Assembly (NCBI GenBank): GCA_018608245.1
Contig: JABAZY010000002.1
Coordinates: forward strand, 70,634-134,633
DNA from: Alphaproteobacteria bacterium
Lineage (GTDB): Bacteria; Pseudomonadota; Alphaproteobacteria; Micavibrionales; Micavibrionaceae
DNA length: 64,000 nucleotides
Direction of reading: 5' to 3'
A model generated the notes under the pieces. It searched no databases, was not told the origin of the DNA, and saw only the letters and a program-made list of their open reading frames with translations. The number at the start of each line of letters is the position of its first letter. The stretch's first letter is position 1. Below, piece after piece: positions 3,380 through 61,213 of the stretch. The translations under genes were made by a program, and so were the position numbers.

Positions 3380-3913
3380 TTAAGCAGCGTTTGCTACTTC
3401 AACTTCCATGTCGCCTTCCCAAGTACCCATTAGTTTTTCTAGGCACATTGTTGCGTCACCTTCTGATGTTTTCTCAACAGCAGCATATTCACGTGCCAAA
3501 CGCTCAAGCGCAGCTTGGTAGATTTGACGTTCTGAATAGGATTGTTCTGAATCTTCACTGTTACGTTTCAGGTCACGAAGAACTTCTGCAATTAGAACAG
3601 GGTCGCCAGAATTGATTTTCGCTTCATATTCTTGTGCGCGACGGCTCCACATTGTACGGCGGATGCGTGCGCGTCCTTCTAATGTTTTCATTGCGTCTTT
3701 CATGCGTGATGCTGTGCAAAGCTTACGTAGACCAGATTCTTTCGCTTTCATCATAGGGATTTTAAGGCGCATGCGGTCTTTTTCAAAACTAATCGCATAT
3801 AGCTTAATATCCATTCCAGCAATAGTCTGTGTTTCAACGCCGTCAATTTTACCAACGCCGTGAGCAGGATATACAACCATTTCTCCTTTTACGAAATTAT
3901 CATTATCAGCCAT
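3380..3913 (-). CDS. carD: CarD/CdnL family transcriptional regulator
   Basis: 177 residues. The N-terminal RNA-polymerase-interaction (RID) domain spans about residues 5-60 with the hallmark MVVYPAHGVGKI. It is followed by a helical DNA-binding domain containing the conserved tryptophan W89 in RRTMWSRR. CarD/CdnL binds the RNA polymerase beta subunit and stabilises open complexes at many promoters. An AAGG ribosome site precedes the ATG. Upstream lie a probable separately transcribed RNA and fdxA, and a strong terminator follows, so it may be monocistronic. Confidence 0.93.
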   Translation of the reverse strand: MADNDNFVKGEMVVYPAHGVGKIDGVETQTIAGMDIKLYAISFEKDRMRLKIPMMKAKESGLRKLCTASRMKDAMKTLEGRARIRRTMWSRRAQEYEAKINSGDPVLIAEVLRDLKRNSEDSEQSYSERQIYQAALERLAREYAAVEKTSEGDATMCLEKLMGTWEGDMEVEVANAA

Positions 3914-3970
3914 AAAATACGCCTTTCTTTATATGTGTTACAATTGTCAGTCTTTTAGTCTTTAGTACCT

Positions 3971-4135
3971 TCGCAAAAAAATGGGGCTACAAAATGTTCA
4001 TTTGTAGCCAACGCGGAGGCTATTTTTTGATGGGAACGAATGAAAGGGCGCTTTTAATTTTAAGGACAAGTAATTCTGACGCCCATCACTTTGTGTGGGG
4101 TACTTGTCGTTGAAGCCTCTTTACCGCTAAACCAT
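3971..4135 (-). ncRNA. Candidate structured small RNA (or carD leader) between fdxA and carD
   Basis: About 165 nt predicted from a promoter (TTGCTT, 17 bp, TATGGT) and an intrinsic terminator. Reading the minus strand, GCGGTAAAGAGGCT near the 5' end can pair with AGCCTCCGC near the 3' end as a closing stem. Inside, TACTTGTC/GACAAGTA form a second helix capped by a CCCCACAC...GTGATGGG hairpin. The segment TGATGGG could pair instead with CCCATCA further downstream, a possible switch or pseudoknot. It matches no RNA family I can name; it is not the 6S RNA, which lies at 61 kb. An attenuated carD leader is the main alternative. Confidence 0.5.
3975..4009 (-). terminator. Intrinsic terminator of the candidate RNA upstream of carD
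   Basis: A 9-bp perfect stem, GGCTACAAA (3985-3993) and TTTGTAGCC (4001-4009), loop of 7 nt. On the minus strand it is followed by seven T (complement of 3975-3981). Because it precedes carD it must either end an independent RNA or attenuate carD. Confidence 0.8.
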
Positions 4136-4141
4136 GTAGAG

Positions 4142-4170
4142 ACCATACATAAATTTTTGTGAAAAAGCAA
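4142..4170 (-). promoter_or_regulatory. Sigma70-type promoter for the candidate RNA
   Basis: On the minus strand, TTGCTT (complement of 4165-4170) is separated by 17 bp from TATGGT (complement of 4142-4147), predicting a start near 4135. It lies directly after the fdxA terminator. Confidence 0.55.
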
Positions 4171-4181
4171 GGAAAACTTTT

Positions 4182-4211
4182 AAAAACACTGTGGACGTGG
4201 CGCTCACAGTG
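4182..4211 (-). terminator. Intrinsic terminator of fdxA
   Basis: CACTGTG (complement of 4205-4211) and CACAGTG (complement of 4187-4193) form a 7-bp stem with an 11-nt GC-rich loop, followed on the minus strand by TTTTT. It begins 2 bp after the fdxA stop. Confidence 0.75.
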
Positions 4212-4213
4212 GG

Positions 4214-4552
4214 CTAGTCTCCCTCGCCAGGATTTTCGCTAAAGTGCGTTTCAAACTTGTTTTTGACGTCCTTGAAGGCATCAGATTCGGGCATTGGATC
4301 TTTTTGTTCGGTGATAACAGGCCACATTTCTGAATATTTTCTGTTCATTTCCAACCACTTATCAGCTTCTGGCTCTGTGTCTGGGATAATCGCTTCAATC
4401 GGGCATTCTGGTTCGCATACACCGCAATCGATACATTCATCAGGGTGAATTACTAATGTATTCTCACCTTCATAAAAGCAATCAACAGGGCACACCTCCA
4501 CACAGTCGGTGAGCTTACACATAATACATACATCTGTTACTACAAAAGTCAT
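4214..4552 (-). CDS. fdxA: Seven-iron ferredoxin FdxA (3Fe-4S/4Fe-4S)
   Basis: 112 residues, the usual length for FdxA with its C-terminal extension. By comparison with Azotobacter ferredoxin I, C9, C17 and C50 should hold the 3Fe-4S cluster and C21, C40, C43 and C46 the 4Fe-4S cluster; C12 and C25 are extra. The motif [13 protein letters not shown] is diagnostic. It carries electrons in the cytoplasm. The ATG overlaps the stop of the upstream LD-carboxypeptidase gene by 4 bp (ATGA), which suggests translational coupling. The fdxA-near-carD arrangement is common in alphaproteobacteria. Confidence 0.95.
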
Positions 4553-47663: not shown

Positions 47664-47737
47664 TGGAGGCGCGGGTCGGAATCGAACCGGCGTACGGGGA
47701 GTTGCAGTCCCCTGCATGGCCACTCTGCCACCGCGCC
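47664..47737 (-). tRNA. tRNA-Cys (GCA)
   Basis: 74 nt on the minus strand with encoded CCA (complement of 47664-47666). The acceptor stem GGCGCGG pairs with CCGCGCC, the discriminator base is U as expected for cysteine, the anticodon loop CTGCAAC gives GCA, and the T-arm has GGTTCGATTCC. All arms fold. Confidence 0.95.
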
Positions 47738-61028: not shown

Positions 61029-61151
61029 CTATAAGGTAGGTGCTGCGGGGCAGGTGACCCTTCAATATTCTTGAGACCGATGTTTTTTCATCCGGGATCC
61101 GCCTCTGTCCAGACCGTGGTTTGGTTATTGTAGAGCCCACCTTATTTATAG
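61029..61151 (+). ncRNA. ssrS: 6S RNA
   Basis: Located between zapA and fau, the conserved 6S position. The closing stem pairs CTATAAGGTAGGTGCT (from 61029) with AGCCCACCTTATTTATAG (to 61151). Inside are the 6S-like CTTGAGACCGATG and CGGGATCCGCC segments flanking the central bubble. 6S RNA binds sigma70 RNA polymerase by mimicking an open promoter. Possible promoter TTGATT (60998) and TTATAG (61022). At about 123 nt it is short for the family, so the ends may lie further out. Confidence 0.75.
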
Positions 61152-61213
61152 GGTTTCACGATGAATAATGAACAAAAGGCACGGCTTCCGCGGCACTTTA
61201 TTAAATAAGCAAG

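Follow-up and report, generated by a model that had tools for sequence, protein, structure and literature searches.

What is transcribed from the gap between an fdxA-like ferredoxin gene and carD in this alphaproteobacterium, and which gene does it serve? CarD/CdnL acts at very many promoters, those of the rRNA genes included, and a CarD/CdnL leader that carries a terminator would offer a defined, testable handle on how the level of a polymerase regulator is set. The window, i.e., the whole stretch of 64,000 nucleotides analyzed here, lies in a 2.0-Mb alphaproteobacterial genome whose closest named relatives, judged by CarD, are Micavibrio MAGs. Minus-strand genes at the locus encode an LD-carboxypeptidase, the fdxA-like ferredoxin and CarD; a hairpin terminator belonging to fdxA follows the end of that gene at 4214, and the remaining gap is taken up by a promoter, a structured stretch and a second terminator. 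An earlier note had read this arrangement as an independently transcribed RNA gene, and its underlying observation of a promoter, a structured RNA and a terminator 5′ of carD was confirmed. The sole tRNA gene of the window (tRNA-Cys) is found at 47664-47737 on the minus strand. The features of the locus are as follows.

4214-4552, minus strand: fdxA-like ferredoxin gene (Pfam Fer4 and DUF3470)
4182-4211, minus strand: fdxA terminator, CACTGTG...CACAGTG plus five T (sequence; hairpin -11.4 kcal/mol)
4142-4170, minus strand: predicted carD promoter, TTGCTT-17-TATGGT (sequence; position kept across the order; DNA match in the relative G006)
3914-4135, minus strand: carD 5′ leader, predicted +1 to last base before the start codon
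4132-4135, minus strand: P1a 5′ strand, AUGG (covariation AUGG/CCAU, AUAG/CUAU, UGC/GCA)
4124-4128, minus strand: P1b 5′ strand, AGCGG (covariation AACGA/UCGUU, AGCGA/UCGCU, AACGGCG/CGCCGUU)
4115-4122, minus strand: P1 inner extension, 5′ strand, AAAG-A-GGC (window-specific; fold)
4065-4108, minus strand: inner hairpin domain closed by GACAAGUA/UACUUGUC (fold; not conserved in relatives)
4043-4049, minus strand: P1 inner extension, 3′ strand, GCC-CUUU (window-specific; fold)
4035-4039, minus strand: P1b 3′ strand, UCGUU (covariation, fold)
4030-4033, minus strand: P1a 3′ strand, CCAU (covariation, fold)
3975-4009, minus strand: intrinsic-terminator-like hairpin GGCUACAAA/UUUGUAGCC, CCA and U7 (scan; a different hairpin there in G006)
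3922-3928, minus strand: likely Shine-Dalgarno sequence, AGAAAGG (sequence)
3380-3913, minus strand: carD (CdnL-type), 177 aa (Pfam CarD_C 8.6e-22, CarD_TRCF_RID 4e-12)

The promoter described earlier was present on the minus strand, with its -35 element (TTGCTT) at 4170-4165, a 17-nt spacer, its -10 element (TATGGT) at 4147-4142 and a predicted +1 near 4135. Taken alone it is weak, matching 7 of 12 consensus positions and escaping a consensus scan, and as a prediction it is credible only through its conserved position and the near-consensus forms in relatives. These were examined in the carD upstream regions of ~105 genomes of the order (Micavibrionales), most of which have a TTGAAA-N17-TATANT promoter 120-215 nt 5′ of the carD start codon; 48 of 105 regions reached a score of at least 10/12 with a 17-nt spacer, against 1.1 ± 1.3 in shuffles. 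The predicted promoter of the window is carD's own and of sigma-70 type. Since it is conserved before carD across the order, the RNA is taken to be the carD 5′ leader and no free-standing gene; the independently transcribed gene did not survive comparison, its promoter being the conserved carD promoter and no credible promoter lying 3′ of the terminator. A DNA similarity search (E < 1e-3) returned, besides the window itself, only G006, with an 80% DNA match across the promoter and 5′ end, and a 21-nt match in G003. Because the DNA 5′ of the leader is unlike fdxA in several relatives, the leader appears to travel with carD. In several relatives (L158, L177, L178, L180, L181, L185) CarD itself has a long in-frame N-terminal extension, Lys/Ala/Pro-rich by eye.

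The window leader folded moderately better than shuffled sequence (z of -2.5 and -2.3). All of the nested complementary segments named previously were found on the minus strand, including the GACAAGTA/TACTTGTC helix at 4108-4101/4072-4065. Two outer stems are nearly equal in energy, the one drawn in the earlier note (4118-4114/4021-4017 with GCGG/CCGC) at -37.8 kcal/mol and P1 at -37.6 kcal/mol, and of these the relatives back P1. Conservation of the paired segments was thereby borne out for the outer stem, as P1 and not exactly as drawn, but not for the inner helix and hairpin, whose sequence is not kept in relatives. P1 (4135-4132/4033-4030 and 4128-4124/4039-4035) is the outer stem and starts at the predicted +1. 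Its layout is common to the window leader and those of relatives: four nucleotides from the start site pair ~100 nt downstream, and a short, mostly pyrimidine internal loop is followed by 5-7 more pairs.

Unconstrained folding gave P1 in most of 18 leaders despite differing sequences, with outer pairs of AUGG/CCAU, AUAG/CUAU or UGC/GCA and inner pairs of AACGAU/AUCGUU, AGCGG/UCGUU (the window), UAGCGA/UCGCUA or AACGGCG/CGCCGUU. In a two-strand alignment of the 18 leaders, 82% of cells paired and double changes occurred in 10 of 11 pairs; covariation was 0.349, whereas shuffles gave 0.162 ± 0.023 (0/500) and slid controls no more than 0.182. These values are to be read with the registers having been placed by hand with N padding, which biases toward structure, and with shuffle controls that, here as in the other comparisons, ignore shared ancestry. 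RNAalifold returned no structure from the raw MAFFT alignment of leaders, the interiors of which were unalignable. Because the registers were hand-set, alignment-free checks of topology, long-range pairing and half-swapping were added. The P1 topology appeared in single-sequence folds of 7 of 9 congeners (1.1 ± 0.8 in shuffles), pairing of the 5′ end far downstream exceeded that of shuffles (87 leaders; paired t 8.4), and pairing was better between matched 5′ and 3′ leader halves than after mismatching (permutation p ≤ 0.0005), all in line with the covariation of P1. Leaders not of P1 type generally close over a long range too, though with no common sequence; leader sequences diverge fast among relatives, and no universal motif emerged beyond a weak enrichment of AACGG/CGGTT. 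A leader peptide starting from the AUG at the predicted +1 was considered and rejected: the window reads AUG-GUU-UAG, and several congeners have AUA there with P1 still kept. That the structure arose by chance in AT-rich intergenic DNA would suit the window's own z of just about -2.4, yet it is contradicted by the comparative tests (promoter, P1 covariation, topology, long-range pairing, matched halves) and is very improbable. From these predictions, the carD leader RNA is truly structured, with P1 kept by compensatory changes, and the comparison shows P1 and the predicted promoter to be shared and the leader to lie in cis with carD.

The second terminator consists of a 9-bp hairpin (4009-3985), CCA and seven T (3981-3975), with the carD start (3913) following ~60 nt on. 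It had been called strong; it is present, but that adjective is somewhat generous given the 3-nt gap ahead of the T run. In G006 a terminator-like hairpin that differs from the window's occupies the corresponding place. Under a stringent threshold, intrinsic terminators were found between promoter and start codon in 22 of 91 leaders (2.2 ± 1.3 in shuffles), varying in sequence and position among genera. Among ten congeners, only two (the window and G006) follow the downstream hairpin with a T run of terminator grade; in the others this position holds a hairpin or weaker pairing but no proper T run. The terminator is a prediction, yet a significant one across the order. Beyond the order its excess was only two-fold, part of which upstream genes may account for; Azospirillum (L049-L053) has a terminator-like hairpin ~62 nt 5′ of carD, and with such hairpins attenuation in the carD leader may reach beyond the order. 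In 20 leaders with a terminator, no credible sigma-70 promoter was found in the stretch from terminator to start codon, and the window's own 9/12 match 3′ of the terminator abuts the carD start codon. Polymerase must therefore pass the terminator to make CarD, and we infer that termination is partial and regulated.

Sequence prediction thus places a promoter and a terminator 5′ of carD on the same strand, with no promoter between, and we consider it moderately probable that the leader is a cis-acting attenuator that limits or tunes CarD through a P1-closed domain and a partial terminator. Transcription would start near 4135, at the sigma-70-type promoter that belongs to carD, the first ~12 nt would pair with a segment ~95-105 nt downstream to close the P1 domain, and the interior of the domain would be free to vary. 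The terminator hairpin would then halt a fraction of polymerases before carD, likewise in many relatives, and carD would be made solely by polymerases that read through. Alternatively, P1 could shield carD mRNA from 5′-end-dependent decay, the hairpin being a mere barrier and termination incidental or absent. Most P1-type leaders do have P1 starting at their predicted +1, and in 8 of 10 congeners the downstream hairpin has no terminator-grade T run, but T-run terminators at about ten-fold over shuffles across the order speak against such a stability leader, which we regard as unlikely though worth weighing.

The earlier note had offered either an attenuator or a trans-acting RNA; attenuation of carD stands as the most plausible role, and the trans-acting part fell for want of a strongly conserved unpaired segment. 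A small RNA of ~160 nt that shares carD's promoter, is released by termination and targets other mRNAs would account for the discrete predicted start and terminator and for the stable fold. Neither a conserved unpaired seed nor a neighbour-independent locus was found, however: no unpaired segment is strongly conserved across genera, the element was collected and found before carD only, and carD has no second promoter in terminator-bearing leaders. Such a small RNA appears decidedly unlikely.

How read-through might be controlled under the attenuator reading was approached through the known classes of leader. Antiterminator pairing able to disarm the terminator showed no excess in 22 leaders (mean z +0.38), and the window's candidate (UAGCC/GGCUA) is ~5.7 kcal/mol less stable; with no mutually exclusive antiterminator found, a switch-type attenuator was rejected. 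The two-partner switch once proposed for TGATGGG was also set aside. Its second partner (CCCATCA, 4034-4028) exists as a perfect 7-nt match, but by estimate this is about the chance level in 160 nt, it occurs in a single genome and is not conserved, and forcing the pairing costs ~3.6 kcal/mol. Masking of the Shine-Dalgarno sequence by leader segments did not exceed chance in 82 leaders (mean z 0.03 ± 0.10); the window leader gave -12.0 against its own Shine-Dalgarno sequence versus -8.2 ± 2.0 in shuffles, with no family-wide signal. A riboswitch was rejected in that no conserved ligand-binding core was seen, the interior being unconserved across genera; a search of the window and 20 related loci with 4227 Rfam families yielded no match at gathering score, consistent with the earlier impression of no recognisable RNA family. 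As an RNA antiterminator is not favoured, read-through more probably depends on a protein factor, on polymerase pausing or on a fixed ratio, and partial constitutive read-through is compatible with attenuation.

Other carD leaders of the order carry sigma-54-like sites (TGGCAY-N5-TTGCW), which were counted in 16 of 89 leaders, including L116, L117, L119, L124, L174 and L217, versus 1.7 in shuffles and one on the other strand, by a scoring set up after the first examples had been seen and with the site overlapping RNA pairing in one genus. None of these 16 leaders has a strong terminator (p ~0.006-0.016), no leader outside the order reaches a sigma-54-like score of 19, and the window carD leader has no such site; RpoN is encoded in 56 of 58 genomes, this one included. 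Such promoters require upstream enhancer sites, and the covarying segments could on that account be DNA half-sites of a regulator instead of RNA. The segments, however, lie ~85-110 nt apart at variable spacing, beyond any normal palindrome, and pair inside each leader's predicted RNA fold, leaving this explanation extremely improbable. A broader and rather doubtful generalization is that the Micavibrionales carD leader may be a dedicated module with a conserved sigma-70 promoter and a 5′-closing stem, to which a terminator or a sigma-54 promoter is added by lineage, never both, such that carD would be either attenuated or RpoN-controlled.

Among known controls of this gene, CarD of Rhodobacter sphaeroides reportedly represses its own promoter, which likewise acts at the carD promoter, but at initiation and not via leader RNA. 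No paper on a carD leader RNA was found among the open-access papers searched, and RNA-level control of carD in alphaproteobacteria seems undescribed; the only RNA control of carD found in those papers is the mycobacterial antisense RNA AscarD (PMC8820732). AscarD also controls carD at the RNA level, but it is SigF-dependent and antisense to the carD coding region, whereas the present leader is sense and in cis. In Caulobacter, also an alphaproteobacterium, the cdnL transcript drops on starvation, and control of CdnL in starvation centres on ClpXP proteolysis; the words 'UTR' and 'terminator' are absent from that report and no leader is mentioned (PMC11034885). 6S RNA (RF00013) is likewise a structured RNA tied to global control of RNA polymerase, but the carD leader does not match its model; a separate 6S RNA gene lies at 61037-61200 on the plus strand of the window (52.6 bits), and 6S RNA was detected in 18 of 19 genomes, this one among them. 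The best reading of the leader is an undescribed cis-acting element of attenuator type. Compared with the Bacillus subtilis rplJL leader, which is controlled by L10(L12)4 (PMC4538822), and with trp/TRAP, it serves another gene, is unrelated in sequence and has no antiterminator found or known effector, but it shares with them a promoter, a long structured leader and an intrinsic terminator ahead of a growth-related gene.
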